The notes beneath the pieces are model-generated. The model had not been told where the DNA came from and did no database searches. It worked only from the letters and a program-made list of their open reading frames with translations. From positions 1 to 44,944 of IMG/VR virus record IMGVR_UViG_3300031576_000101: a stretch of DNA of 44,944 nucleotides, one strand, 5' to 3'. Below, piece after piece: positions 1,409 through 44,436 of this stretch. Within the stretch, counting starts at the first letter, position 1; each line of letters begins with the position of its first letter. A program made the translations under genes and the position numbers. This stretch comes from a virus.

Positions 1409-1445
1409 TTGACAGCCCGGCCCGCACGCCATAGGCTAGGCGTCC
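1409..1445 (+). promoter_or_regulatory. Sigma70-type promoter of the recombinase operon, predicted leaderless
   Basis: TTGACA at 1409-1414, a 17-base spacer, then TAGGCT at 1432-1437. Only 8 bases separate the -10 box from the ATG at 1446, so the transcription start should fall on or next to the start codon, giving an mRNA without a Shine-Dalgarno leader. There is no Shine-Dalgarno sequence before the ATG, which fits. Confidence 0.8.
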
Positions 1446-1763
1446 ATGAGACCGCGACCGATGGCCGCCAGCGAGCGCCGGCAGCTCGCTCGAGCAGTGA
1501 AGGCCCACGAGCGCGCCGGGCGCCGTGTCGACCAGATCCTTGAGGATTTCGCCGCCCAAGCAGTGCGCTACTCCGACCTCGGCGCGGTGCTTGGCGGGAT
1601 CGGGCGCGCGGGCGTGTCCGAGCGCCTGCGTACCATCAGGGCTCGAGCTCGGACGGTCGGCGCGCTCGAGCACGCCGACGAAGGGTCCCTATCCGGAGAG
1701 GCCTCGGTCTCTCGGGGCCCTACGTCCGGGCCCGTTCCGTCAGGCGAGCGTGGCTCCGGCTAG
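1446..1763 (+). CDS. Small basic protein with helix-turn-helix-like segment (105 aa)
   Basis: First gene of the rightward recombinase operon, starting 8 bases after a strong -10 box. Residues about 10-65 are helical and basic, with YSDLGAVLGGIGRAGVSERL resembling a recognition helix-turn-helix; the C-terminal 35 residues are Ser/Gly/Pro-rich and probably disordered. Its stop is 3 bases before the next ATG. Position suggests a recombination accessory factor or a regulator of the operon, but I recognise no family. Confidence 0.7.
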   Translation: MRPRPMAASERRQLARAVKAHERAGRRVDQILEDFAAQAVRYSDLGAVLGGIGRAGVSERLRTIRARARTVGALEHADEGSLSGEASVSRGPTSGPVPSGERGSG

Positions 1764-2563: not shown

Positions 2564-2579
2564 GAACGGGGGATGGAGC

Positions 2580-3128
2580 TCAACCGCACGTCGGTTCCTT
2601 CCTGGTCTGGTCTGGGTCCTCGCGTTGGGTGTCGATGAAGGCTTGACGGACGATGCGAGCAAGCGAACCACCGTACCGTTCAGCCATGTGGCCAGCGAGC
2701 TCGCCAGCTTCTACCAACCCCTGTACCAGCCTGCGGTGTGAGGCTTGGAGTTCGCCGAGTCGGTCACGCAGCGCCACCATGTAATCCAACCACTCGTCTA
2801 TCGCAGCAAGGCAGAACTCCCGGCCGCCAGGCTCCATCTCACCGACTGCTCGTGTCAGCCCTCCTGCTCGCATCCGGAGTTTGCGTTCAAGCGCGAGCTG
2901 CTTCTCCTCGTCGTCCAGAACGCGGGCGATTGCGAACCTCCGCTCCTCCGCCTCCTCCGCTCGTTCTTCTGCTTGGTGGAGGCGGGCGCGAAGAACATGC
3001 AGAGTGCGAATCGCCGCACTGGCCGAGCCTGGGTATCCCGTGCGCTCGTAACGCTCGAACCACTTCTCAACCAGGTCCCAGCCTTCACCCCTCTCTACAG
3101 CTTCATCTGTGCTGGTCGGATCGCTCAT
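2580..3128 (-). CDS. Coiled-coil protein, paralogue of the 3125-3508 product (182 aa)
   Basis: Starts MSDPTSTDEAV at ATG 3128 after a GGAGGAAGG site, overlapping the upstream stop as ATGA. Long charged heptads (LHQAEERAEEAEERR, residues about 50-90, and LGELQASHRRLVQGL later) predict coiled coils. The same two motifs occur in the next gene (LYQAEERAEAVEAELQ and LEAKHRRLVEAVEVL), so the two are tandem duplicates. The first codons and the ribosome site lie in a 60-base exact direct repeat. Last gene of the long early operon; it converges on the recombinase gene with a 16-base gap. Function unknown. Confidence 0.8.
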   Translation of the reverse strand: MSDPTSTDEAVERGEGWDLVEKWFERYERTGYPGSASAAIRTLHVLRARLHQAEERAEEAEERRFAIARVLDDEEKQLALERKLRMRAGGLTRAVGEMEPGGREFCLAAIDEWLDYMVALRDRLGELQASHRRLVQGLVEAGELAGHMAERYGGSLARIVRQAFIDTQREDPDQTRKEPTCG

Positions 3129-3155
3129 CCTTCCTCCTGTTGGCTGTCGGTGAGG
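3096..3155. repeat. 60-base exact direct repeat, copy 1
   Basis: Identical to 3728-3787. On the minus strand it encodes the end of one protein (LTDSQQEEG, stop), the ribosome site, and the start of the next (MSDPTSTDEAV). Confidence 0.95.
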
Positions 3156-3508
3156 GCTTGGCGGAGTTTCAACAAGTCGTTCGGCACCACGCTCCATATC
3201 CGTGCGTTCATGCAGAGCACTTCCACCGCCTCTACCAGCCTGCGGTGCTTGGCTTCAAGCCGGGTGAGTTGAGCTTCTAGCGAGGCGATGCGACTGGTGT
3301 AGGTCTGTAGATGTGGCACGGGAACCCGCAGTGTCCGTTGCAACTCAGCCTCAACCGCCTCCGCTCGTTCTTCTGCTTGGTAGAGGCGTTCGAGGAGGGA
3401 GTCGAGGGCATTACGACCACCCACTTGCAGGAATGGTGAGGCGAATGGTGTCAATGCCGACTTCAACACCGCCACCGCTTCAGCTACAGCTTCATCTGTG
3501 GTGGTCAT
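3125..3508 (-). CDS. Coiled-coil protein with MTTTDEA leader (127 aa)
   Basis: The ATG at 3508 overlaps the preceding stop (ATGA). The N-terminus MTTTDEAVAEAV shares its first seven residues and underlying bases with the gene at 3757-4002. Residues 40-100 form two coiled-coil stretches homologous to those of the neighbour at 2580-3128. The last nine residues LTDSQQEEG are encoded in the 60-base repeat and reappear at the end of the 3757-4002 product. No enzyme motif is visible. The gene looks assembled from a common head, a variable middle and a common tail. Confidence 0.8.
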   Translation of the reverse strand: MTTTDEAVAEAVAVLKSALTPFASPFLQVGGRNALDSLLERLYQAEERAEAVEAELQRTLRVPVPHLQTYTSRIASLEAQLTRLEAKHRRLVEAVEVLCMNARIWSVVPNDLLKLRQALTDSQQEEG

Positions 3509-3711
3509 CGCCGCATCATGGCCTCTGGTCCCGCAGCCCACTCGGCCTCAGTCATCGTTCGTCTGATGACCGCTTCTATGCACCGATGAAACTCGGCCTG
3601 TTCCGCCTGGTGCCGAGAGCAGCGTCGTTGCAACTGGCGGTAGCGCTGCTCCAAGTCGTCGTCTGAAAGCAGACACATCACGGCTGGTTCATGCAGCGGT
3701 GTTCTCCGCAT
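3505..3711 (-). CDS. Small helical protein (68 aa)
   Basis: Starts MRRTPLHEPAVM at ATG 3711. One long charged helix (DDDLEQRYRQLQRRCSRHQ and on) covers most of the protein, and the tail is MTEAEWAAGPEAMMRR. The stop overlaps the MTTTDEA start of the next gene. It may be a short relative of the neighbouring coiled-coil proteins, but the similarity is too weak to be sure. Confidence 0.65.
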   Translation of the reverse strand: MRRTPLHEPAVMCLLSDDDLEQRYRQLQRRCSRHQAEQAEFHRCIEAVIRRTMTEAEWAAGPEAMMRR

Positions 3712-3712
3712 C

Positions 3713-3760
3713 TCACCTCACCCCCATTACAGCTTCATCTGTGCTGGTCGGATCGCTCAT
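3713..3760 (-). pseudogene. 15-codon remnant of a duplicated gene start (micro-ORF)
   Basis: MSDPTSTDEAV is identical to the start of the 2580-3128 gene because it lies in the second copy of the 60-base repeat, but the frame ends after MGVR. It overlaps the upstream stop (ATGA) and ends one base before the ATG at 3711. It is either a scar from a deleted gene or a functional translational relay. Confidence 0.6.
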
Positions 3761-3787
3761 CCTTCCTCCTGTTGGCTGTCGGTGAGG
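3728..3787. repeat. 60-base exact direct repeat, copy 2
   Basis: Identical to 3096-3155, spanning the tail of the 3757-4002 gene, a ribosome site and the truncated second MSDPTSTDEAV start. Confidence 0.95.
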
Positions 3788-4002
3788 TGTCCCAGTCGCG
3801 ATGGACAAGCGCAATAACAGCCCGCCGTGTGCCCGCAATACGTGCAAACCGTCCGTCCCTCGAGACGCTCCACGGCTTCCTCGACGCCCGCAGCGAATCC
3901 TGCTACGAACTCGTCTGAGTAGTCGCTGAGGTCTACTCCTACCTCAGCGACGGTCCGCAGCACCCGTGCCCACGTTGCGCTAGCTTCATCTGTGGTGGTC
4001 AT
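3757..4002 (-). CDS. MTTTDEA-leader protein with cysteine knuckle (81 aa)
   Basis: Begins MTTTDEASATW and ends LTDSQQEEG, sharing both ends with neighbouring genes. The centre has an acidic helix (DYSDEFVAGFAAGVEEAVE) followed by CTYCGHTAGCYCAC, a cluster of five cysteines and one histidine suited to zinc binding. Start at ATG 4002 overlaps the stop of the 3999-4172 gene. Function unknown. Confidence 0.75.
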   Translation of the reverse strand: MTTTDEASATWARVLRTVAEVGVDLSDYSDEFVAGFAAGVEEAVERLEGRTVCTYCGHTAGCYCACPSRLGHLTDSQQEEG

Positions 4003-4172
4003 CGGGTCAGCTCATCAGCCGTCGATACCGAGAGGAGCATCCATGACACATGTGCTTCTGGCTCCTCCTCCGTCCCGATCTGATGGATAACTTGGAGCCA
4101 TTCATCAGTAGGAACGGCACCCTCGTAGACCTCTTCGCCGCATTCCGAACAGAACAGCGTGATGTCATTCAT
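3999..4172 (-). CDS. Small putative zinc-binding protein (57 aa)
   Basis: Starts MNDITLFCSECGEEVYEG at ATG 4172, overlapping the upstream stop (ATGA). A CxxCG knuckle with a following EVYEG turn is the first half of a zinc ribbon; the second half has no Cys pair. The stop overlaps the next start. Many small CxxCG proteins occur in this operon; their role is unknown. Confidence 0.68.
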   Translation of the reverse strand: MNDITLFCSECGEEVYEGAVPTDEWLQVIHQIGTEEEPEAHVSWMLLSVSTADELTR

Positions 4173-5926: not shown

Positions 5927-6147
5927 CGGTGCTCCGGGAGGATCGCCACCAGCCGCGAGCGGTCGAACTCGAGCAGCGACACATGCTCAAGCACGCCGTC
6001 GTCACGTCGGGGGCGCTCCTCGTCTCGCAAGCAGATCGCCTCAATCAGCAGGAGCACACGCTGCCCCTTGACGACCCGGAGGCCGGACGTGAGATCACGG
6101 ATCGGACGGGACTCGAGTACCTCACGCAACGTCGCCACCATCCACAC
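5923..6147 (-). CDS. Unknown protein (about 74 aa)
   Basis: Two starts are possible: GTG 6147 or ATG 6141 two codons inside; neither has a clear ribosome site, and translation probably depends on coupling with the 6122-6313 gene, which it overlaps by about 26 bases. The sequence is strand-rich and basic (LRVVKGQRVLLLIEAI, VSLLEFDRSRLVAILPEHR). No family recognised. Confidence 0.62.
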   Translation of the reverse strand: MWMVATLREVLESRPIRDLTSGLRVVKGQRVLLLIEAICLRDEERPRRDDGVLEHVSLLEFDRSRLVAILPEHR

Positions 6148-6825: not shown

Positions 6826-7266
6826 TCATCGGGTGTCGCCCGGCCTCCGCTTCGTGGCACCGGGCTCGCCGACTTCCCACACGACGTATGGGTCCTCGCC
6901 GTCGCCGTGGTGGGGCGCGTAGGGACGCTCGCCGTCGATCTTGAACCACTCACAGCTCTCATGGATGACCACGTCACAGTAGCGGTCGAACAGCCACCGC
7001 TGCCACGAGCGACGGTCATAGGCCGCTGCCGGGACCGGGAACATGTGCAGAACTCGGTACTCCCGGCCCTGCTCCGGGTGATAGGTGTCGAACGTCTGCG
7101 TGAGGATGTTCAACCTCAGTCCCGAGCACCCCTGGCCCCGACGGCGGCCGTCATCGAGGTAGACCATCCAGTCCTTCTCGAGCTCGCAGTGCTCCACGAG
7201 GTCGGCGAGCGGCTGCGGGAACGGCGCTTCCTGGATGTTCGTCTGCGCGGTCGCCGAGTCGCTCAC
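6826..7266 (-). CDS. Phage protein of unknown function (146 aa)
   Basis: Starts MSDSATAQTNIQEAPFP. Two conserved-looking blocks are visible: LVEHCELEKDWMVYLDDG and RYCDVVIHESCEWFKIDGERPYAPHHGDGEDPY, the latter rich in Cys, His and Asp and so a possible metal site. It is a soluble mixed-fold protein. No enzyme family recognised. It lies just upstream of whiB, with an 18-base gap that carries the whiB ribosome site. Confidence 0.75.
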   Translation of the reverse strand: MSDSATAQTNIQEAPFPQPLADLVEHCELEKDWMVYLDDGRRRGQGCSGLRLNILTQTFDTYHPEQGREYRVLHMFPVPAAAYDRRSWQRWLFDRYCDVVIHESCEWFKIDGERPYAPHHGDGEDPYVVWEVGEPGATKRRPGDTR

Positions 7267-7542: not shown

Positions 7543-7976
7543 GTGCGGTCTCCTTCCGGTAAGGCGAGCTGCTGGTCGAGGTACAGGTCGTAGACGGTCC
7601 GGCCGTCGCCCGTCGCCATGTACGGCAGCATCACCTGGTCGAGCGTGACCATCTCGGTCCGCAGCAGCGCGAGCTGGGCCTCGACCCAATCCTTGAGGAT
7701 TCGCCAGCCCACCCGATCGGCCTGCTCAGTGCTCGCGTAGCGTGGCTTCACCCGGTCTCGCTCAAGCACTGCCAGCACGCGCTTGGTCTGAACGGGGAGC
7801 GCGTAGCCCCGCATCCCGTGTGGCGTCTCCACCGAGAACGACAGTCCGACGACGGCACCGCCCGCGTCGTAGTCGGCCACGATTGACCGGGCACCGGCCT
7901 TCGCGAGGAGCCCCTGGATCTCATGGACCGTCCGCGCGACAGGGACCTCGGTCGTGTAGTTGAGGATCGGGCTCAC
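7539..7976 (-). CDS. Conserved phage hypothetical protein (145 aa)
   Basis: Starts MSPILNYTTEVPVARTVHEI at GTG 7976 (GTGA overlap). The type of sequence, with ILAKAGA-like, IVADYD, GLSFSV and GYALPV blocks, is one I associate with a widespread phage hypothetical family found among replication and recombination genes; its activity is not known to me. It follows the RuvC-like gene directly and may act with it. Confidence 0.78.
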   Translation of the reverse strand: MSPILNYTTEVPVARTVHEIQGLLAKAGARSIVADYDAGGAVVGLSFSVETPHGMRGYALPVQTKRVLAVLERDRVKPRYASTEQADRVGWRILKDWVEAQLALLRTEMVTLDQVMLPYMATGDGRTVYDLYLDQQLALPEGDRT

Positions 7977-8539
7977 GCTGGCGCCCCCTCCTTCGGCCAC
8001 TCAACCTTCTCGATGGCTTCCCTCGCATACTCGGGCAGATTGTCGTGCCTGTGGGTGGCACCCAGCCCCATGAGTCGGAGCATCCAGGCATCGGCCGCGT
8101 TGTTGTCATCCCCCTCGAACGCCCATCGCCGGATCGCCGCGGCGAGCATCTGGTCCTTCGAGGCGTTGCCCTTGCCGGTCGTGAACTTCTTGAGCGTGGC
8201 TGGCGCGACGATCGCCACGGGTGTCGCGTGCTCGTAGAGCGTGAGCCGGATCACTCCGCCGAGCTCCCCGACGTCGAAGATCGCCCGCCCCTTCGACCCG
8301 TACGAGTAGCCCTCTAGCACCACGAGAGGTCGGCCAGCGCCCGCAGGCAGCTCTGAGGGAAGCCCGCCGTGCTCGTCAGGCTCAGGTTCTTCCGGCCAGA
8401 ACATCCGGTAGAACAGCGTGTCGCGGATCCCGGCGAGGCGTTCCGGCCCGGTGACGCCCCGGGTCCGGATCACCATCGCGCCACGCTCGTCGGCGTAGCC
8501 CGTGGCCTGCAGCGACAGGTCGACGCCGCACACCCTCAC
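7973..8539 (-). CDS. ruvC: RuvC-like Holliday-junction resolvase
   Basis: An RNase H-fold endonuclease that resolves branched DNA before packaging. Acidic residues match the family: Asp7 in CGVDLSLQATG, Glu76 in PLVVLEGYSYG, and Asp144/145 plus Asp150 in GDDNNAADAW; KGNASKDQM (123-131) is the usual helix before the last motif. At 188 residues it has the normal family length. GTG 8539 overlaps the upstream stop. It is one of three recombination genes in the operon with recT and the O-like initiator. Confidence 0.9.
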   Translation of the reverse strand: MRVCGVDLSLQATGYADERGAMVIRTRGVTGPERLAGIRDTLFYRMFWPEEPEPDEHGGLPSELPAGAGRPLVVLEGYSYGSKGRAIFDVGELGGVIRLTLYEHATPVAIVAPATLKKFTTGKGNASKDQMLAAAIRRWAFEGDDNNAADAWMLRLMGLGATHRHDNLPEYAREAIEKVEWPKEGAPA

Positions 8540-12076: not shown

Positions 12077-12108
12077 CACGGACCCGGTGTCCAGGGCGTC
12101 TCGCTCAT
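12076..12108 (-). other. 10-codon micro-ORF bridging recT and the membrane micro-protein
   Basis: MSETPWTPGP then stop. ATGA overlap with the recT stop and TGATG overlap with the next start, which has no Shine-Dalgarno sequence of its own. Likely a translational relay. Confidence 0.5.
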
Positions 12109-13277
12109 CGGCCTGTCGCCATCGACCGGGTCTCAAGGCAGCCCGCCACCGTGCAGATCTCGAGCCGGGCGTCGACCTTCGACAGAGCCCACAGGTGAAC
12201 GTGTGTGGTGGCGGCGGGTTCCTTCCCCGTGTCGGTTGTCTCCCCGACGGTGTGTGCTCGTTCAGCCCCCGCCGCCACCAACCCATCCCACTGACGGACG
12301 AGTTCCGCAGCGGTGCGTTGGTCAAGATCGTTGAAGCTCGCCACCCTCGCCTCGGCGTGACGCTGCTCGTCGTCCCAGCCGAGCTTCCCCGCGAGGATGG
12401 CGAGGGTGGCCTTCTGCCGCGCCGTCGCCCGCTTGGAGGAAGGCGGCGGGGCAGTCCCCGTACCAACCCCACCGCCTTCCAACCCGGAGGCCTCGCGCGC
12501 GCCCCGAGGAGAGGCCGACGCCGGCGCGACTGACGGTTCGCTGTCGGCTTCCGTATGTGGGTGTCCAGCCTCCGGGATCTCTACGTCGACCGCAGGGCCG
12601 TTCTCAACCACGGCAGCGACATCGAGGATCTCGCCTGTCGCGGTGTCGACCGCGCGGCCGTTGACCTCGACGGTGCTGCTCGCAGCCCGCGCCTCTGCGA
12701 GCTCCTCCGCCGTGGCGTCGGGGTTGAAGTAGGCGTTGGCCTCGTCGTCGGCCATGATCTCGCCCTCGACGTAGACGCGGGCGCCCACCACGTCGGGGCA
12801 GAACCACGCGACACCGTTGGACATCGCCCGGGCGAACAGCATGTTGCGTGGGTAGGTCGTCCAGGGCGTCGGCTTCCCGTCCTTGGAGACGAACCGTAGG
12901 ATGGCCGTCTTGGCGTCCTCGAGAGTGAACACCGATGTCCCCTGCGGGATCCAGTGCTCACCGTCGTCACGCTGCAGGAACTCGATCTCGGCCCGCTCGT
13001 TGTCCAGATGCTTGACCCGATAGTCGTAGCGGGGATCGGCCTTCACGCGCTGGGCAAGCAGGTCTGCCGACAGCTCGACCTTGCCATCCATGACGTGCAG
13101 GGAGCGCATCGACTCGACCGGCGACAGACCAAGCTCGCGACCGGCGAGCACCTTCACCGCAGCCTGGGCCCGGCTCTTGATGTCGGGGAACAGCCCCGAA
13201 GCCTGCAGCAGCTCTCCGACGAGTGCAAGGTTCTTGAGATCCTTCTCCCGCAGGACGATCGCGGTGTCGGTGCTCAT
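12105..13277 (-). CDS. recT: RecT-family single-strand annealing protein
   Basis: Binds single-stranded DNA and anneals complementary strands during phage recombination. Residues about 10-210 carry the actinophage RecT/Bet signature (LVGELLQASGLFPDIKSRAQ, GRELGLSPVESMRSLHVMDG, SADLLAQRVK, YPRNMLFARAMSNGVAWFCP). The C-terminal third has a low-complexity linker, then ARQKATLAILAGKLGWDD and a short Cys/His tail (HVHLWA...CTVAGC), so at 390 residues it is longer than classical RecT (about 270). ATG 13277 overlaps the upstream stop. No RecE/lambda-Exo-type nuclease is recognisable nearby. Confidence 0.88.
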   Translation of the reverse strand: MSTDTAIVLREKDLKNLALVGELLQASGLFPDIKSRAQAAVKVLAGRELGLSPVESMRSLHVMDGKVELSADLLAQRVKADPRYDYRVKHLDNERAEIEFLQRDDGEHWIPQGTSVFTLEDAKTAILRFVSKDGKPTPWTTYPRNMLFARAMSNGVAWFCPDVVGARVYVEGEIMADDEANAYFNPDATAEELAEARAASSTVEVNGRAVDTATGEILDVAAVVENGPAVDVEIPEAGHPHTEADSEPSVAPASASPRGAREASGLEGGGVGTGTAPPPSSKRATARQKATLAILAGKLGWDDEQRHAEARVASFNDLDQRTAAELVRQWDGLVAAGAERAHTVGETTDTGKEPAATTHVHLWALSKVDARLEICTVAGCLETRSMATGR

Positions 13278-14378: not shown

Positions 14379-14746
14379 GTCACGACCCCGGCCCGCATGC
14401 AGATCGCCACGAGCTCGGCGCGCTTGTGGGAGCCGAGCTTCGTCCGGGCTCTCGCGGCGTAGACCTTCGCGGTGTGTGCGGAGATCCCAAGAGACGCGGC
14501 CCACGCCGGCGTCGAGTACCCATCGGCCCACGCTTGCACGAGCGAGGACTCCCGGTAGGTGAGACTCGCCACGGGTGACTCCCTATCGTCGCTCACCGCC
14601 GGCAGGTGGTCGAGGATCACGGCCTTGCCCGCTCGGACGTGCCGCCACCCCTGAGCTGCATACCAGGCTACCGGCCCACCGCAGTCTCCGCAGAATCCGT
14701 CGGCCGACATGGCTCCCCGTGCTGACTCCCCGACGGCGGGTTTCAT
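14375..14746 (-). CDS. LuxR-type helix-turn-helix regulator with zinc knuckle (123 aa)
   Basis: N-terminus has FCGDCGGPVAWY (Cys19, Cys22), a half zinc ribbon. Residues about 58-118 are a LuxR/GerE-type HTH: SLTYRESSLVQAWADGYSTP, WAASLGISAHTAKVYAARAR then TKLGSHKRAELV, with the conserved T-x-[RE]-E-x-x-[VL] start and H-T/V-K recognition helix. Second gene of the early operon, coupled to the MerR-like gene by ATGA, so it is likely an early transcription regulator of phage or host genes. Confidence 0.85.
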   Translation of the reverse strand: MKPAVGESARGAMSADGFCGDCGGPVAWYAAQGWRHVRAGKAVILDHLPAVSDDRESPVASLTYRESSLVQAWADGYSTPAWAASLGISAHTAKVYAARARTKLGSHKRAELVAICMRAGVVT

Positions 14747-15066
14747 GCGACCCGGCCCTCAAGAGACCGGAGCGCGCCCCGGACCTTTACCGCCAAGCTC
14801 GAGATGCCCTTCCAGAAGTCCGACCGGGTCGCCTCGCGGATCTTCTGCAGCGGAATCCCGACGTGCACCAAGGTCATGATGGCTCCCACCCGGTCGCGAT
14901 CCTCCACCGAGTAGAGTCGGGTGCTTCCAGATCCCCGAGCTGACCGGATCGAGGGTGTCACGAGCCCGGTCCGATCCCAATAATCGAGCTGGCGGAAGGT
15001 CGCACCCGTCGCGTGCATCAGATCGTATGTGCGGTACGCCTGAGGGACGGGGGCAGGAGCGGTCAC
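14743..15066 (-). CDS. MerR-family helix-turn-helix regulator (107 aa)
   Basis: YDLMHATGATFRQLDYWDRT then GLVTPSIRSARGSGSTRLYS is a MerR winged HTH (residues about 13-55), followed by RVGAIMTLVHVGIPLQKIRE, the usual second helix pair. The C-terminal dimerisation helix is short and no effector domain is present. First gene of the leftward early operon; the GTG at 15066 lies 8 bases after a -10 box and has no Shine-Dalgarno, so it is probably translated from a leaderless mRNA. It may autoregulate this promoter. Confidence 0.87.
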   Translation of the reverse strand: MTAPAPVPQAYRTYDLMHATGATFRQLDYWDRTGLVTPSIRSARGSGSTRLYSVEDRDRVGAIMTLVHVGIPLQKIREATRSDFWKGISSLAVKVRGALRSLEGRVA

Positions 15067-15103
15067 GACGGCGAACGTTACACCCGTGCGACCATCGGTG
15101 CAA
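15067..15103 (-). promoter_or_regulatory. Early leftward promoter, predicted leaderless
   Basis: Read on the minus strand: TTGCAC (15103-15098), 17-base spacer, TAACGT (15080-15075), then 8 bases to GTG 15066. Same geometry as the recombinase promoter at 1409-1445. Confidence 0.75.
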
Positions 15104-15867: not shown

Positions 15868-15928
15868 ACGATACCGACCGCGGTCAAGCCTGCTAGCGCG
15901 TGACACGAGTGGGGGGTATGCTCGCTGC
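15868..15928. promoter_or_regulatory. Divergent promoter region for endolysin and fibre genes
   Basis: On the plus strand TATGCT (15917-15922), preceded by a run of six G, lies 6 bases before GTG 15929, predicting a leaderless mRNA; no good -35 box is visible at 16-18 bases. On the minus strand TATCGT (15873-15868) could serve the gene starting at 15835, which has a normal ribosome site. Confidence 0.45.
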
Positions 15929-16699
15929 GTGAAGCGATATCAGATCGGGGCGGACGGCACGTTGGAGCGGTCGAAGCTCTACGCCCAGGCCGACAAGGTC
16001 ACCGACGACCTCGTCTCCGCGATCCGACGGGCGAACGGTCGTGGCGAGACGTCGTGGCGCGAGGACGACGGGTCGGTCCAGATGTTCCCGACGGTCGCTC
16101 TCGCTGTCCGGTCGATGCTCGCGGCGGCTGGCAGAGGCACCAGGGCCCGCCAGTTCCGCACCGTCGCAACCAAGAACGATCCGGCCGTCTACCTGCACGT
16201 TCTGTCAGGCTCTCCCGCGAACCTTGGTGCCTCGATCCCGCCGGCGGCCCTCGGGGCGAACGGTCCGGCGATCCGACGGACGCTCGCGTTCCACGAGGAG
16301 CTGTCCCTCGTGTTCGAGGACTACAAGAGCCTCGGCCTCTATGCTCCCCGGCCGATCCGGGCCGAGACACCGCAGGGATGGGACCAGGGCGACCCGTGGC
16401 CCGCAGGAGCCTACGCCTCGGAGCACGCCTGGGCCTGTGCCGACGACGCTGGGAAGGGGAAGGGCAAGCCCTCCGGTGGGTACGACACCGGTCCGACGCT
16501 CAAGCCGTCTCTCGCGAAGATCACGACCTACGTGCTCGCGAACCGACAGCGGCTCGGGATGGTCGACCACATCTTCGACCGGCACCGCTGGCAGGCCCCG
16601 ACCTACCGCCGGGAGGCGTACACCGGCTCCGATCCGCACGACACCCATACGCACTCGGCCTTCGGCGACCACGACGGCCGTAAGCCTCCCTGGCTGTAA
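15929..16699 (+). CDS. Putative endolysin (ARB-07466/M15-like C-terminal domain)
   Basis: 256 residues from GTG 15929. The C-terminal half (from about 165) has AGAYASEHAWACADD, then LGMVDHIFDRHRW and YTGSDPHDTHTHSAFGDHDG. This W ... YTG-x-x-P-H-x-x-H-x-H arrangement is typical of lysin/resuscitation-type peptidase domains of actinobacteria and their phages, with the histidines as likely metal or catalytic ligands. The N-terminal part has no recognised domain and no signal peptide, so a holin would be needed for release. Only large plus-strand gene in the morphogenesis half, with its own promoter. A structural role is an alternative. Confidence 0.6.
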   Translation: MKRYQIGADGTLERSKLYAQADKVTDDLVSAIRRANGRGETSWREDDGSVQMFPTVALAVRSMLAAAGRGTRARQFRTVATKNDPAVYLHVLSGSPANLGASIPPAALGANGPAIRRTLAFHEELSLVFEDYKSLGLYAPRPIRAETPQGWDQGDPWPAGAYASEHAWACADDAGKGKGKPSGGYDTGPTLKPSLAKITTYVLANRQRLGMVDHIFDRHRWQAPTYRREAYTGSDPHDTHTHSAFGDHDGRKPPWL

Positions 16700-24630: not shown

Positions 24631-25100
24631 CAGGCGACCCCCTGTAAGGCTCGGTTGGCGCGATCGGCACGGAACGCCTCCTGCGTGGCGTCTGAGATCC
24701 GCTTGGCTGCTTCGATGTCCCGGCGTCTGGTGGTCTGGGGCTGCGAGCCCTCGTGACGGACCTTGGCGTAGTCCTCGAGCCGCGAGTCCCAGCGGCGGGA
24801 CTTCTCCGGGTCGATCTGCCCGGCGCCAGCGGTGCGGGTGGGCGCGAACGCCGTGTTGACCGTGGATATCCGTTCCCGCCAGTGCTCAGCGCACTCGCGA
24901 CCGTTCACGGTCGCCGGCGCTCCGCAGGCGCAGGTGGATTCCATCGCGCTCATGCTGTCCACCGGCGTCAAGCCGGGAGCATGAAGCTCGCACCAGAACT
25001 CGCCGGCGCGCAGGACGAGCCCGCTCGTCGCCCAGCACCGGCAACACCAGACGGATGCACGGACGAACGAATCGGAGAAGCCGTAGCGGGCCCACATCAT
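24630..25100 (-). CDS. Cys-rich protein with basic helical tail (156 aa)
   Basis: ATG 25100 (ATGA overlap) or the second ATG at 25097. The first half has a CCRCW cluster, CELHAPG and CACGAPATVNGRECAEHW, so two zinc-ribbon-like units. The second half is charged and helical (DYAKVRHEGSQPQTTRRRDI, AKRISDATQEAFRADRANR). A start at MSAMESTC near 24955 would give a one-ribbon protein. Function unknown. Confidence 0.7.
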   Translation of the reverse strand: MMWARYGFSDSFVRASVWCCRCWATSGLVLRAGEFWCELHAPGLTPVDSMSAMESTCACGAPATVNGRECAEHWRERISTVNTAFAPTRTAGAGQIDPEKSRRWDSRLEDYAKVRHEGSQPQTTRRRDIEAAKRISDATQEAFRADRANRALQGVA

Positions 25101-25456
25101 CCGTCGATCCACCCCGGAAGGTCGGTGCCCAGGCGCGTGTCGTCGACCTCGGCGATCCGGGCGACGTATCCGGCGGTCGTGATGGCCGTGACCTCGGCCG
25201 ATGTGAGAGGCCCGTTCCAGTAGCCGCCCCGGTACTTCGTCGCGCCAGCGGTGTCGGGTTCGACCACCACACCTGCGGCCGTTATCCAGATGTCCCGCCC
25301 GCGGCGTGTGCCGAAGAACAGCTGTCGGAACTTCGGGGTCTGCCCGGCGTAGCGATTCGTGACGAAGGTACGACGCACGATCGAGGTCGCGGGCTCGATC
25401 GGCGGGAAGAAATACTTCTGCAGCGTCATCGCGTCCAGCGTGGTCAGGCAGGTCAA
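25097..25456 (-). CDS. Structural-block protein, unknown (119 aa)
   Basis: The TTG at 25456 overlaps the stop of the upstream micro-ORF as TTGA, matching the ATGA/GTGA pattern elsewhere, so I prefer it; the ATG at 25429 (MTLQKYFFPPIEP) has no clear ribosome site. The body is beta-rich (RRGRDIWITAAGVVVEPDTA) with a final PLTSAEVTAITTAGYVARIA. First sizeable gene after the capsid terminator. Confidence 0.68.
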   Translation of the reverse strand: MTCLTTLDAMTLQKYFFPPIEPATSIVRRTFVTNRYAGQTPKFRQLFFGTRRGRDIWITAAGVVVEPDTAGATKYRGGYWNGPLTSAEVTAITTAGYVARIAEVDDTRLGTDLPGWIDG

Positions 25457-25533
25457 GCCAACAACGACAGCGGCCAGCGGTTGAACTTCCGCGCGTTACA
25501 CGTGGTCTCCCCACACCGGGAGCAGCGTTTCAC
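25453..25533 (-). CDS. 26-residue cysteine micro-protein leading the tail operon
   Basis: MKRCSRCGETTCNARKFNRW then PLSLLA. GTG 25533 lies 7 bases after a -10-like TAGTCT, so it would be leaderless, and its stop overlaps a TTG start. K-R-C-x-x-C-G-E is a common beginning of tiny phage zinc-knuckle proteins. It may act mainly as a ribosome entry ORF for the tail genes. Confidence 0.5.
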   Translation of the reverse strand: MKRCSRCGETTCNARKFNRWPLSLLA

Positions 25534-25546
25534 GTGACCCAGACTA
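25534..25546 (-). promoter_or_regulatory. Candidate tail-operon -10 box, predicted leaderless
   Basis: TAGTCT at 25546-25541 with 7 bases to GTG 25533, just downstream of the capsid terminator. No good -35 box. Confidence 0.4.
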
Positions 25547-25562
25547 GCGGGCCCTAACGACA

Positions 25563-25607
25563 CGAGAAGGCCCCCGGGAGGGGTGTGCCCCCCAGAGGGC
25601 CTTCTCG
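25563..25607 (-). terminator. Capsid-gene terminator hairpin
   Basis: Perfect 11-base inverted repeat, CGAGAAGGCCC (25563-25573) and GGGCCTTCTCG (25597-25607), with an inner G/C hairpin. It lies 12 bases after the major capsid gene and has no T-run, as is usual in high-GC genomes. Confidence 0.85.
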
Positions 25608-25619
25608 CTCAGGCTAACC

Positions 25620-35666: not shown

Positions 35667-36044
35667 CTACCTGCCTTCTCGGATCTTCGCGATGTAGGGG
35701 CCCAGGCTCGGAGCATCCGACGTGGACAGCTCATCGGCCACACGCAGCATGAATGTCCGGTCGTCCTCCGAGGGCAGGCGCACGAAGTTCGGGCCCGGCC
35801 CGAACGGGGCGCCGGCGGTGATCGGCTCGTCGGGCCGCGACGTCGGCGACATGATGACCTCGTCGTAGCCGTCGTTCAGCTCTTGGACCGGCCCTCCGGC
35901 CGGACCCTCGTTCTCAGGCGAGCCGGGCGGTCCCAGCGGTGGCTGGTCCGGGACGGAGGATGCGAGGCGGGCCAGACCCGCCGACGTTCCATGCGGAGCC
36001 TCGGCTCCCGCGCGGATCGGCGGTGTCTGACCCGGTCTCGGCAT
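35667..36044 (-). CDS. Small virion-block protein, proline-rich (125 aa)
   Basis: MPRPGQTPPIRAGAEAPHGT: residues 1-85 are Pro/Gly-rich and probably disordered; the C-terminal 40 (DRTFMLRVADELSTSDAPSL and GPYIAKIREGR) form a helix. Tightly packed between its neighbours (1- and 6-base gaps). Unknown role; such proteins often bridge portal and internal proteins. Confidence 0.72.
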   Translation of the reverse strand: MPRPGQTPPIRAGAEAPHGTSAGLARLASSVPDQPPLGPPGSPENEGPAGGPVQELNDGYDEVIMSPTSRPDEPITAGAPFGPGPNFVRLPSEDDRTFMLRVADELSTSDAPSLGPYIAKIREGR

Positions 36045-36045
36045 C

Positions 36046-36480
36046 TCAGGCGACGCGACGGATGTGCTCGACGATCATCGAGAACTGCTCGGCGCAGGCC
36101 TCACAGTCGGGGTCGAACCCCTCGGGTGCGTGTGCCGCCTCGGCCGAACGATGGGCACCGCACGCGACCGGCGCGTAGGGCACGCCGTTGTAGACGAACT
36201 CCATCGCCCCGCTGTCCGGCACATCGCGCAGCTTGAACGGCCCGCCGTCCTCGGCGGTCGGGTCCTCCTTGGGAACGTCCGCGGCCGTGACGTGGCGCGC
36301 CAGGTCGATCTCACCATCGATGCCGCGCTCGGTAGCCTCCTCCACCCTCACCTGAGCGTTCTCCGGGTGAGCGCCCTCAGCGACCGCGATCGCTGCCTCA
36401 AGGTCGGCCTTGCTCATGCCGGACCGGCCCTCGATCTCGAGCTCCCCGGCTCTGACCCTCAGCTCCTCAACCGTTGCCAT
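36046..36480 (-). CDS. SAP/Rho-N-like domain protein (144 aa)
   Basis: Residues 1-34 (MATVEELRVRAGELEIEGRS then GMSKADLEAAI) match the helix-turn-helix of SAP, HeH or Rho N-terminal domains, which bind nucleic acid. The C-terminus has CGAH and CEACAEQF, a likely zinc site. The ATG at 36480 follows GGAAGGAG inside the end of the portal gene. Position after the portal suggests a head-completion or DNA-binding virion protein. Confidence 0.75.
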   Translation of the reverse strand: MATVEELRVRAGELEIEGRSGMSKADLEAAIAVAEGAHPENAQVRVEEATERGIDGEIDLARHVTAADVPKEDPTAEDGGPFKLRDVPDSGAMEFVYNGVPYAPVACGAHRSAEAAHAPEGFDPDCEACAEQFSMIVEHIRRVA

Positions 36481-38323: not shown

Positions 38324-40525
38324 CTAGCGGGCAGTCAACCCGAGGAGCCGTTTCTCGGCCCATTCGGGCGGCTTCCCATTGAGACGTTCCGCGATCCAGC
38401 TCGGCGTCTCATCGCCGTAGTCGTCGTCCGCTTCCTCCGCCAGATACATCACCAGGAGCGAGTCCGCGCGGAAGGCGTAGAACCACTGGCCCATGACGAG
38501 GTCCCACGTCGAGCCCTCCGGCCAGGCGCAGGCCTCCTTGATGAGCGCATCGGCGAACGCGCGCTCCTCACCGCCTCCGTAGGGCAGCTTCATCCGGCCG
38601 AACTCGTACATCGGTCCGAGCATCTCGACGCCGCGGTCCGGGTCCGGCTTGGTCTGCTTGGTGGTGGAGTGAGGCACGAGCGAGACGCCCCGCTCCGCGC
38701 ACCACGTCGTGACGAACTCGTACTGCATGAGCCACCGCTGTTGAGCCTGGGACTCGACCACGAGGTAGGTGGGGGCGTTGCCCTCCTCGCGCGCCGCGGA
38801 GTACCACTCGTCCAGAAGGCCCGTGTAGACGCCGTCGGCGCCGCGATAGATCAGGTCGGGGGCCTGCATGATGCGGCGGGCGCCACGATAGACCTGCGAG
38901 AACCGATCCGGCCATCCGACGACGTGCTGGACCGACCACCACTTCGCGCCGGAAGGGTCCACGGTGAACATCGAGATCCCCGGTGCGTCGTCGCGGTAGA
39001 GCTGACCGAACCGGACCTCACGCTCGAGGCAGCCGGGCGCGATCGCGCCCTTGGAGTCACGGCCACCCTCGAACCAGGCGCGCTGAGCGAGGTTCCCAAC
39101 AGGGTCGACATCGCCCTGCTGCCACACGAGCTCGAACCGCCGCGAGTTCTTCTGAGCCTTGCGGATCCGCCGGATCGAGGTCCGCACGGGATCGAGCAGG
39201 CACCCGTCGGGCCAGGGGCCACCGTGGGTGACTGTGACTTTCCCGTCGATATTATCGACCGACCGCTCACACTTGGTCTCGTCGTGCGCCGGCAGAGCGA
39301 TGTGCTGATACATCGGCCGCGGGCGCCCCAGGTCGTCCAACTCCTCCTCATCGAGCTCCTGGCGGACGTGCCATGAGAGATCCTCGGGGCTGTATCGGGC
39401 GTTGGACAGAACCATCAGCCCGTCGGGCTCAAGGCGAGTCTCGGCGTCCTGCTCCCACCAGTCCACGACCTTCTCGCGGGCATCGGCGTTGCCGGAGTTC
39501 GACCGGTCGATGAGGTCATCCCACACGCAGACGTTGGCTCGGATCGAGAGCAGCGACTTCTCGTAGGACACCGCGTTGAACGTCGCCTCCTTCTCCGTCA
39601 GGCCCGCCCACGCCAGAGGTTCCACGTCGAGCTGGTCGTTCGACCATCGGGCACCCTGGCGCTCGGGTCGGAACCGGCCGTAACGGCGGATCAGCTCCGC
39701 GTTGGTCTCCATCGTCCGTCGGAGACGGTGGATGTAGAGCTTAGCCTTCGCGTCGGACCGGTGGCCGAGAGAGAACACAAGCTCGATTCCCTTCGCCCGC
39801 GCCTGCGTCTCGAGCCACAGCACCCAGTCATGGGTCACCACTGTCGATTTCCCGAGCCCCGGGTTGAAGTTCACGACCGCATACTGCTCCCCGGCCATGA
39901 AGTAGAGCTCAGTGAGCTCGGTCGCCGTCATCGTCGCCCACGGGGGAGACTCGCGGCCGAGGACCCGCGGGCGGAACAACGCGAAGTCGTCGAGGGTCTC
40001 GCGATCCCCGCGCTCAAGCTGTTCGTAGGGGATCGGCTCGGACCCGCCGACGAACGCCAGACCCCGCGTCGAGCGAGCGGACTGCTCCTCCGTGGTCAAG
40101 GCGAGGATCCCTTCCTCTCGCCAGCGGGCACGCCATCGCTCAACGGTGTCCGGAGTCATCGTGAGCACGTCGGCGACGTAGCGGGCGGTGTGGCCCTTGC
40201 GGAGGAGCTCGAGAACCTCCGGTTTCAGCTCGACCGCTCGCTCCCGGGTGAGCAGTGCTCGCCGACCTCTCGGTCTGGGTGCAGGGATGGTCAGAGGCAC
40301 AGGCGGCAGATCGGTCGGGTTGGGAGGGATCGGGACCGCAGGCTGGTAAAGCCGGTTGACGAGATCGAGTTCGCCCCGCGCCTTCGCGATCCCGACCCAC
40401 TTCTGAGCACTCGACATCGCGCACTGCTCGGAGAAGCTCGTCATCCAGATCTTGTAGAGGACACCCTGCGTCCCCTCCTCGGCCACCGCCCTCAGCAAAC
40501 GATCGCGGACCTCGCGCTTCGTCAT
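38324..40525 (-). CDS. terL: Terminase large subunit with N-terminal DNA-binding extension (733 aa)
   Basis: Motor that pumps and cuts phage DNA. ATPase: Walker A NPGLGKST (221-228), Walker B VCVWDD (332-337), coupling segment MVLSNARYSP. RNase H-like nuclease: FTVDPSGAKWW, YLVVESQAQQRW and STWDLVMGQWF supply acidic residues. Residues 1-180 are extra compared with the usual 450-550: AVELKPEVLELLRKGHTARY then VADVLTMTPDTVERWRARWR is a helix-turn-helix at about 97-137. No separate small terminase is recognisable, so recognition may be built into this protein. ATG 40525 follows directly on the upstream TAG. Confidence 0.92.
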   Translation of the reverse strand: MTKREVRDRLLRAVAEEGTQGVLYKIWMTSFSEQCAMSSAQKWVGIAKARGELDLVNRLYQPAVPIPPNPTDLPPVPLTIPAPRPRGRRALLTRERAVELKPEVLELLRKGHTARYVADVLTMTPDTVERWRARWREEGILALTTEEQSARSTRGLAFVGGSEPIPYEQLERGDRETLDDFALFRPRVLGRESPPWATMTATELTELYFMAGEQYAVVNFNPGLGKSTVVTHDWVLWLETQARAKGIELVFSLGHRSDAKAKLYIHRLRRTMETNAELIRRYGRFRPERQGARWSNDQLDVEPLAWAGLTEKEATFNAVSYEKSLLSIRANVCVWDDLIDRSNSGNADAREKVVDWWEQDAETRLEPDGLMVLSNARYSPEDLSWHVRQELDEEELDDLGRPRPMYQHIALPAHDETKCERSVDNIDGKVTVTHGGPWPDGCLLDPVRTSIRRIRKAQKNSRRFELVWQQGDVDPVGNLAQRAWFEGGRDSKGAIAPGCLEREVRFGQLYRDDAPGISMFTVDPSGAKWWSVQHVVGWPDRFSQVYRGARRIMQAPDLIYRGADGVYTGLLDEWYSAAREEGNAPTYLVVESQAQQRWLMQYEFVTTWCAERGVSLVPHSTTKQTKPDPDRGVEMLGPMYEFGRMKLPYGGGEERAFADALIKEACAWPEGSTWDLVMGQWFYAFRADSLLVMYLAEEADDDYGDETPSWIAERLNGKPPEWAEKRLLGLTAR

Positions 40526-40981
40526 CTACGTCCAGAGCCCCCGATCGTGGAGCTGGCGATTCATGGCGATCCAGAGATTGTGGAAGATGTAGGCGAAGGC
40601 CTCCTCGTCCTCGGTCGCGCTTTCCCCGAAATCGGCGGACCGCCACACGGAGTCCCGACCCCTCTCCCGGTAATAGGTCAGCGCCGCATGGACCAGCTCG
40701 TGAACCACGATGTACGGTTCAAGGTGCTCCCGGTTCAACAGGATGAAGCCGATCCGCGGCTCGACCCGAACCACGTTCTTGTCGCTGTCCACCAGCCACT
40801 CGGTCCGAGGGCTGCAGAACGCCAGGGCATCGTCGCCGAACCCCGGGAAATGTCCGACGCCCAGGATGCGAGACCGGCCGTAGTGACGTCGCATCCCGGC
40901 GAGAGTGTCGAACACGCGGACCTCGAAGTACATGTGCCCGCCACCGTCGTCGTACCCGACCCGGAAGCGCTCGTCTTTCAC
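40526..40981 (-). CDS. Metalloprotease-like protein (HExxH) (151 aa)
   Basis: VVHELVHAALTYYRERG contains an HELVH zinc-peptidase motif (His94, Glu95, His98), and EDEEAFAYIFHNLW about 30 residues later could give the third ligand (Glu126/127), as in SprT-like and gluzincin folds. The N-terminal half is beta-rich. GTG 40981 overlaps the preceding stop. It lies just before the terminase, so cleavage of a virion or host protein during assembly is possible. Confidence 0.75.
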   Translation of the reverse strand: MKDERFRVGYDDGGGHMYFEVRVFDTLAGMRRHYGRSRILGVGHFPGFGDDALAFCSPRTEWLVDSDKNVVRVEPRIGFILLNREHLEPYIVVHELVHAALTYYRERGRDSVWRSADFGESATEDEEAFAYIFHNLWIAMNRQLHDRGLWT

Positions 40982-42350: not shown

Positions 42351-42386
42351 TAGACAGGTGCGTCAACCCGGCGTAGGGTCGGCGAC
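42351..42386 (+). promoter_or_regulatory. Promoter of the three-small-gene operon, predicted leaderless
   Basis: TAGACA (42351-42356), 17-base spacer, TAGGGT (42374-42379), 7 bases to ATG 42387; no Shine-Dalgarno. Confidence 0.7.
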
Positions 42387-42554
42387 ATGAATGCTCGCTT
42401 CGACGGCCCTACGTGGGACACGGTGGTCGTGATCGCGTGGGTGCTGTTCCTCATCGCGGCCGTGGTGATGATCGTGCTTTCAGCGATGACCGGCCTGTCC
42501 CCATCCTCCGGCGAGGGCTCCTACCCGCAGGGCCCCCCGGTCGGCGGGGGGTAG
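42387..42554 (+). CDS. Single-pass membrane micro-protein (55 aa)
   Basis: MNARFDGPTWDTVVVIAWVL then FLIAAVVMIVLSAM is one transmembrane helix (residues 12-34), followed by a Ser/Pro/Gly-rich tail. It begins 7 bases after a -10 box. First of three tiny genes in an operon facing away from the late genes; membrane-based exclusion or regulation is a guess. Confidence 0.72.
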   Translation: MNARFDGPTWDTVVVIAWVLFLIAAVVMIVLSAMTGLSPSSGEGSYPQGPPVGGG

Positions 42555-42806: not shown

Positions 42807-43082
42807 CCAGAGAGGGGCCGGTCCTCCCGGAGGTTCGCCGCTGTACGGAGAGGAGACTTCGGCCAGCCTTGCTCGGAACTAGCGGTGACGTGCGGCGCTC
42901 GAGGCTGACGACCGGCCCACGCGGATCATCTTCCAACTTTTTCCGGTGGATCGCTTGCAACCGGGCTCGGCGTGGTGTTGGGTGGTCCTCCATGACTCAG
43001 AATCCTGCAGTGTCCGGCAACGGGGGATCAGCGCCAGGTCGCGAGGGCCTGGTCCGCGCCAAGCGCGGGGAGTGAAGAAGAG

Positions 43083-43100
43083 CCCGGGGTGACGCCTGGG
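43083..43100 (+). terminator. Small hairpin related to 43221-43249
   Basis: CCCGGG (43083-43088) pairs with CCTGGG (43095-43100) with one G-T pair on the plus strand. The flanking sequence aligns with the 43221-43249 element (both have GTGACGC in the loop and end in CCTCCGCC). Confidence 0.4.
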
Positions 43101-43220
43101 AGAAGGCCCCTCCGCCAGTAGGACCGCAGGAAACATACCCCCCCGCTGTCTACCTCCGAGGCGTGTCTTGAAGGGTCCCCCACGATCCACCATCCCACGG
43201 CGTAGGTGAGTGAACGACGA

Positions 43221-43249
43221 AGGCCCCCGGAGTGACGCTCCGAGAGCCT
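43221..43249 (-). terminator. Leftward hairpin terminator
   Basis: On the minus strand AGGCTCTCGGAG (43249-43238), loop CGTCA, CTCCGGGGGCCT (43232-43221): 12 continuous pairs, two of them G-U that exist only in the leftward RNA. It lies about 35 bases after the predicted start of the 43319-43291 promoter. Confidence 0.65.
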
Positions 43250-43283
43250 CCGCCCACCCTGCAGTGCGACCGGGGGAGATCGC

Positions 43284-43319
43284 GGGAACCACGATATCGT
43301 CAAGGAACCTTACCGTCAA
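43284..43319 (-). promoter_or_regulatory. Leftward promoter without an obvious downstream gene
   Basis: TTGACG (43319-43314), 17-base spacer, TATCGT (43296-43291), predicted start near 43284. The transcript would reach a hairpin terminator after about 60 bases, which suggests a small RNA or an attenuated leader. Confidence 0.6.
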
Positions 43320-43838: not shown

Positions 43839-44023
43839 CGCGCACCGCCGATGACCGTGGCCACGTACTCAAGCTGACCGATGATGCTCGCAACGGTCGG
43901 CTTGACGCTCGCGTACGCCACGTCGTCGCCCGCGTGCCACAACAGGCTCTCGACGTTCTGCAGGTGCGCGACGGCGCCCGCTAGCGCCGCCTCGACATCT
44001 TCGCGGTCCTCGGGCCCTAACAT
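43835..44023 (-). CDS. Small helical protein (62 aa)
   Basis: MLGPEDREDVEAALAGAVAH then LQNVESLLWHAGDDVAYASV. All-helical; ATG 44023 lies inside the end of the upstream gene, so coupling is likely. Stop overlaps the next start. Unknown. Confidence 0.68.
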   Translation of the reverse strand: MLGPEDREDVEAALAGAVAHLQNVESLLWHAGDDVAYASVKPTVASIIGQLEYVATVIGGAR

Positions 44024-44250
44024 GCGGGACCTCGCAGACCGACCACCTGCACGTCACGGTAGCCGCGTCGGACTGTCGCATCGGGTTGATGCACCGCAGT
44101 GACGACGCGGACCGACCCTCCGCCCGCTGCCATCACACGAGCGACCGTCTCGGCTGCGTCGCGTGAGTCCACCGTCCGCAGGTCGCGCCATGGCGACCAT
44201 GGACCTTTGCCCCGTTCGGCTTTGTGCCGAACCTGTATCACGTAGGCCAT
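44017..44250 (-). CDS. Small alpha/beta protein (77 aa)
   Basis: MAYVIQVRHKAERGKGPWSP at ATG 44250 with GGGGG 6 bases before it. A beta-alpha-beta order is visible (AYVIQVRHK, DSRDAAETVARVMAAGGGSV, RVVTAVH). First gene of the leftward operon that has TTGACA/TACGGT about 65-100 bases upstream; an ATG at 44301 in the same frame would add 17 basic residues. Confidence 0.7.
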   Translation of the reverse strand: MAYVIQVRHKAERGKGPWSPWRDLRTVDSRDAAETVARVMAAGGGSVRVVTAVHQPDATVRRGYRDVQVVGLRGPAC

Positions 44251-44313
44251 CACGGCCCCCGTTCTGGGCCCTATCCGCCGGGCCCATCGGCGCCACGGCA
44301 TCCGAACCGCGAC

Positions 44314-44349
44314 ACCCCCAACCGTACAGGACGCCTGAACGGCTGTCAA
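44314..44349 (-). promoter_or_regulatory. Leftward sigma70-type promoter
   Basis: TTGACA (44349-44344), 17-base spacer, TACGGT (44326-44321); start near 44314, about 64 bases before ATG 44250. Unlike the leaderless promoters here, this one leaves room for a leader. Confidence 0.72.
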
Positions 44350-44436
44350 GCCCATCCGCGCAGGTTGCCGATTACTTCTCGAGTGCGCCGTTCGGTCGAC
44401 CCGTCCGGAGCCCGCCGTCGAGGCGTCCCACGGCTG

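Follow-up and report, generated by a model that had tools for sequence, protein, structure and literature searches.

Predicted leaderless messages at the heads of a few transcription units in a GC-rich temperate phage

In the temperate phage described here, three or so transcription units quite probably begin with a gene that is directly abutted by a housekeeping promoter, an arrangement predicted from the sequence to give a leaderless mRNA with a start codon free of any Shine-Dalgarno (SD) site. The pattern of promoters placed at start codons is real, and it is partly conserved in the closest relative of the phage, G001. The positions of the transcription starts and the leaderless mode of translation are what we infer from it.

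Results

The window (the whole stretch of DNA that was analysed) comprises 44,944 bases of viral record IMGVR_UViG_3300031576_000101, with a GC content of 67%. It carries genes for terminase, portal, major capsid protein, RecT, a MerR protein and a tyrosine integrase; the phage is temperate, with its tyrosine integrase and MerR-type regulator. A search with the first 25 kb found no close DNA relative among 50,697 phage records. By protein, the nearest isolates are Streptomyces phages (capsid ~41%, portal ~24% identity). The contig G001 (43.4 kb) is a colinear relative with 87% identity in the capsid; G002, G004 and G003 are more distant. Bacterial genomes, scanned twice with capsid and portal alignments, yielded no prophage relative. 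With no host identified there, an actinobacterial one can only be surmised: judged from the sequence, the host is probably a high-GC actinobacterium. The large MCP family (~45% identity) was dropped as a comparison; the seven examined had GC contents of 0.48-0.58 and were almost devoid of the leaderless signature.

An initial annotation had listed five operon starts with a -10 hexamer just ahead of the first codon: ATG 1446, GTG 15066 (minus strand), ATG 42387, GTG 15929 and GTG 25533 (minus strand). The hexamers, start codons, strands and gaps (8, 8, 7, 6 and 7 bases, respectively) read as described, the first T of TANNNT lying ~10-14 bases before the start codon at all five sites, and so do the -35-like boxes placed at exactly 17 bases for the first three (TTGACA, TTGCAC and TAGACA). 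As operon starts, 1446, 15066 and 42387 are firm, 15929 is a single-gene transcription unit, and 25533 is doubtful (26 aa, with a further in-frame GTG 30 bases upstream). Promoters were scored as a TTGACA/TANNNT pair ending 4-10 bases upstream of a start, using a matrix taken from general knowledge and not fitted to these phages. Sites were ranked against 491 first-in-frame ATG/GTG codons, each opening at least 25 codons, and the p-values refer to the full set of 2547 ATG/GTG trinucleotides in the window. Sites 1446, 42387, 15066, 25533 and 15929 ranked 1, 2, 3, 4 and 6, and all five fell inside the top six when the -10 box was scored alone. Since the five were chosen by eye, their p-values carry that selection; the start-blind test and the comparison with G001 (see below) are free of it.

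Both boxes, a 17-base spacer and the lack of any longer in-frame start come together at 1446, 15066 and 42387. Promoter 1 (1409-1437, plus strand) has the top promoter score of the window (p=0.0004), with TTGACA at 1409-1414, matching the consensus at 6/6 positions, TAGGCT at 1432-1437 and a gap of 8 to ATG 1446. The gene that it abuts, at 1446-1763 (105 aa), is the first ORF of the integrase operon, followed by an ORF at 1767-2009 and by the integrase at 2006-2563 (Pfam PF00589, phrog_216). Its orthologue in G001 gives a weak match to a sigma-70 region 4-like HTH (E=0.003, under the Pfam cut-off). Downstream of the integrase lies a 1.6-kb stretch (2564-4168) almost without predicted genes, in which a 40-base direct repeat of 90% identity occurs at 2945-2984 and 3349-3388.

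Promoter 2 (15075-15103, minus strand; p=0.0016) is intergenic, between two genes on the same strand. Its -35 box, TTGCAC (15103-15098), is weak, matching the consensus at 3/6 positions with TTG intact; TAACGT occupies 15080-15075, and the gap to GTG 15066 is 8. The ORF at 14743-15066 encodes a MerR-family regulator of 107 aa (Pfam MerR_1 at residues 11-81) and is a head gene of the leftward early block, to which recT (12105-13277) also belongs. Starting this gene at 14889, the alternative with an SD, would remove most of the MerR domain. Promoter 3 (42351-42379, plus strand; p=0.0012) consists of TAGACA (42351-42356, 5/6) and TAGGGT (42374-42379), with a gap of 7 to ATG 42387. It precedes a predicted small membrane protein of 55 aa (42387-42554), 44% identical to the product of G001 35990-36148. 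At both 1446 and 15066 the gene finder, which gives a bonus to SD sites, failed to call the likely start.

The remaining two sites are weaker. Sought at 16-18 bases, a -35 box was present at 1446 and 42387; that of 15066 was weak, and 15929 and 25533 had none. At 15929 the box TATGCT (15917-15922, plus strand; p=0.0098) stands without a credible -35, with a gap of 6 to the GTG. The gene (15929-16699, 256 aa) has a high coding score and no longer in-frame start; it has no accepted family match, and a search found no relatives of its protein. At 25533 the box TAGTCT (25541-25546, minus strand; p=0.0043) lies at a gap of 7 and has a weak -35 match, TTCTCG. It is followed by a 26-codon ORF with three Cys (25453-25533, minus strand), upstream of 25097-25429. 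A terminator-like hairpin at 25556-25612 (minus strand; -40.8 kcal/mol, z=-5.3) separates the major capsid gene from this fifth promoter, and since so strong a hairpin precedes it, 25533 is supported as a new transcription unit. The hairpin is very stable and has no U tract; a similar hairpin-like sequence is found at the same place in G001. At the place of 25533 itself, G001 has no such promoter and carries an SD-led gene instead. The ORF at 25453-25533 may be non-coding or may be translated as a leaderless upstream ORF, speculatively one like those known from mycobacteria (PMC4633059).

The listed starts had been said to lack an SD that internal genes often have, and the counts bear this out: the longest SD match is at most 3 bases at 1446, 15066, 42387 and 15929, and 25533 has no SD by reading of the sequence, against a match of at least 4 bases at 83/128 internal genes of the window and four relatives. 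Position, missing SD, first-in-frame starts and G001 together make leaderless initiation the best reading for 1446, 15066 and 42387, and a possible one for 15929 and 25533.

The proposal that nearly every operon of the phage is entered in this way did not hold. Most operon-first genes of the window do not have the leaderless layout, and many have an SD; those at 974, 27183, 41653 and 42080 (all minus strand) have SD sites and no -10 box at leaderless distance. The promoters ranking second and third in the window (hits 44326 and 43296, both minus strand) are not followed at leaderless distance by any ORF that reaches 25 codons. The former, absent from the initial annotation, is TTGACA-17-TACGGT at 44321-44349. 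A GTG at 44315, 5 bases past it, opens only 14 codons, so the gene downstream is likely leadered, and the 14-codon ORF is a candidate leaderless upstream ORF. About 60 bases past 44315 a plausible gene begins MAYVIQVR..., inside the ORF 44017-44355. The third-best promoter, TTGACG-17-TATCGT, opens a region (43060-43319, minus strand) that contains a large, GC-rich hairpin and lacks any long ORF; a small RNA is possible there, and the region folds no better than its shuffles (z=-1.15) and has no Rfam match. Predicted leaderless heads number 3-5 among ~17-20 operon starts, or ~3-5 of some 60 genes.

Across five related contigs, a promoter with p<0.01 stands at leaderless distance before 8/85 operon-first genes versus 1/128 internal genes; 1446 and 15066 are left out of the 8/85, the gene finder having placed their starts elsewhere. 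In a start-blind test of the same contigs, intergenic promoter-like sites were picked regardless of start codons, and starts opening at least 45 codons were binned per 5 bases. A start fell 5-9 bases downstream in 9 of the 23 sites, the seven other 5-base bins holding 0, 1, 2, 3, 0, 4 and 1; with a stricter cut-off, 8/13 had a start at 5-9 bases. A held-out set of five more distant recT-bearing contigs, which are fragments, gave 0/74 operon-first matches with annotated starts, which limits the generality of the pattern. One of them, the GC-rich contig L142, nevertheless has a clear leaderless layout, TTGACA-16-TATACT-7-ATG before an 87-codon ORF (3208, minus strand), which lies outside that count.

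Among control phages, Pseudomonas phage B3 has no gene that passes the promoter score. In Pseudomonas phage D3 a single operon-first gene passes, that of the cI repressor; its SD match is just 3, which makes it a sensible positive control for the scorer. phiC31 and FlowerPower have one match each, that of phiC31 being accompanied by an SD; the signature is therefore not shared by all actinophages. Two other motif searches were discarded. A generic sigma-70 scan with TATAAT-like matching of the first 20 kb missed the TANNNT promoters and gave 1 match, under the shuffle mean. An extended -35 motif, GGCTTG, occurs at several promoters, but across the window and three relatives GGCTTG[AC] is found ~60 times, often within coding sequence.

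Both 1446 and 42387 have orthologues in G001 that keep the layout, which is lost or not clear in G004 and G002. The G001 orthologue of gene 1446 (40209-40508, 43% identity) starts at ATG 40209 behind TTGACG-18-GAGAAT-7, and that of 42387 opens with GTG 35990, TAGGAT lying at a gap of 6. Leaderless heads account for three of the four best promoter matches in G001 (7169 on the minus strand, 40196 and 7250 on the plus strand), two of them being divergent HTH regulators: a C1/Cro-type HTH gene at 7156 (minus strand; TTGCAT-16-TAAACT-7-GTG), which heads the recT block, and an HTH gene at 7261 (plus strand), also with the leaderless layout. Adjoining this pair, G001 (L030) has a second integrase-like gene (7650-8471), besides the integrase at 40882. 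In G002 the recT block is headed by an HTH gene at 6040 (minus strand; TTGCCA-17-TACCTT-9-ATG), with a MerR gene further down. The likely counterpart of gene 1446 in G004, located before the integrase, looks leadered, since its promoter-like site is ~50 bases upstream and it has an AGGAG.

Discussion

We propose that the host's housekeeping RNA polymerase would read the phage at ordinary TTGACA/TANNNT promoters, a few of which lie so near a gene that the predicted transcription start is the ATG or GTG itself or a few bases off. The 5' end of the mRNA would then be the start codon, and the ribosome would initiate there without an SD. The units concerned would be small and regulatory or accessory (the head of the integrase operon, the MerR head of the early block and the gene for a small membrane protein), internal genes relying mostly on ordinary SD starts.

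Chance might have produced such a pattern: ATG and GTG are many, some TANNNT will fall at the right distance, and the five sites were picked from the sequence. TANNNT occurs with a gap of 6-8 before 14 of the 2547 ATG/GTG, five of these being the sites discussed here, so some must be expected by chance; 15929 and 25533 lack a good -35, and the distant contigs show no excess. The start-blind excess at 5-9 bases, the contrast between operon heads and internal genes and the layout conserved in G001 all speak against coincidence, which we consider very improbable. Genuine promoters might instead yield very short leaders, or translation might begin at internal codons. Gaps of 7-8 bases do allow a few bases' slack, and in gene 1446 the gene finder prefers a further ATG, in frame at 1461. 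However, ATG 1461 has no SD, the MerR domain requires the GTG 15066 start, and the G001 orthologues begin at the equivalent leaderless codon, making this an unlikely account.

The opposite extreme is a phage-wide strategy, with every operon leaderless so as to keep expression going under host stress. Several leaderless heads in one phage would fit it, and oxidative stress in E. coli is reported to enhance leaderless translation (review PMC9031893). Many operon starts here are SD-led without a leaderless promoter, however, two of the three best-scoring promoters do not lead into a leaderless gene, and other laboratories failed to reproduce the MazF "stress ribosome" model (PMC9031893); we find such a strategy barely credible. 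Nor did reporters in M. smegmatis separate the two kinds of message by rate: leaderless and sigA-leader translation rates were similar, the leaderless message appearing less transcribed (PMC7148126).

Predicted leaderless starts at a few small units would belong to a habit already known in actinobacteria and their phages, since the -10 signature is recognised and leaderless heads have been predicted in Cluster O. A TANNNT -10 box is a mark of leaderless genes and turns up often in Actinobacteria, ~19% of whose genes are leaderless by prediction (PMC3160421). In mycobacteria a 5'-end ATG or GTG is necessary and sufficient for leaderless initiation, and nearly a quarter of transcripts are leaderless (PMC4633059), about the share of operon starts seen here. 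The sites of the window resemble these bacterial genes in having TANNNT ~12 bases before an ATG or GTG and no SD (PMC3160421, PMC4633059); they differ in belonging to a phage genome and in their lower per-gene rate. Closer in kind are the Cluster O mycobacteriophages (the Corndog group; PL1, PR2, PL2), for which leaderless operon heads, including a divergent pair, were predicted from SigA-like promoters, transcription being placed at the opening base of the start codon (PMC4351075); those are different phages, and in both cases the reading is a prediction. In mycobacteriophage Adephagia a putative promoter likewise predicts a leaderless transcript, there of a single gene, gene 90, in a HicAB-like system (PMC11373665). 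With cI of the lambda type (lambda in PMC3160421 and PMC9031893; D3 cI as scored here) the present sites share a temperate-phage regulator, a promoter set directly against the start codon and the lack of an SD; there, however, one repressor is involved, and here several units with MerR/HTH and membrane-protein heads.

The occupants of the recT-block head are unrelated (MerR in the window, a Cro/C1-type HTH in G001, an HTH in G002), each standing directly at the promoter. Leaderless initiation may need only a 5' RTG, so one regulator could be swapped for another without rebuilding a ribosome-binding site. That the leaderless promoter serves as a plug-in cassette for regulators in this phage lineage is a tentative idea, and on the sequences at hand we hold it to be rather doubtful.

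The general picture of phage gene expression is unchanged by these observations. For small regulatory genes, which ordinary gene finders miscall, they point to the likely start codons and sites of transcription initiation; they also add a further example, conserved in one relative, of actinophages that would use leaderless messages for regulators as their hosts do.
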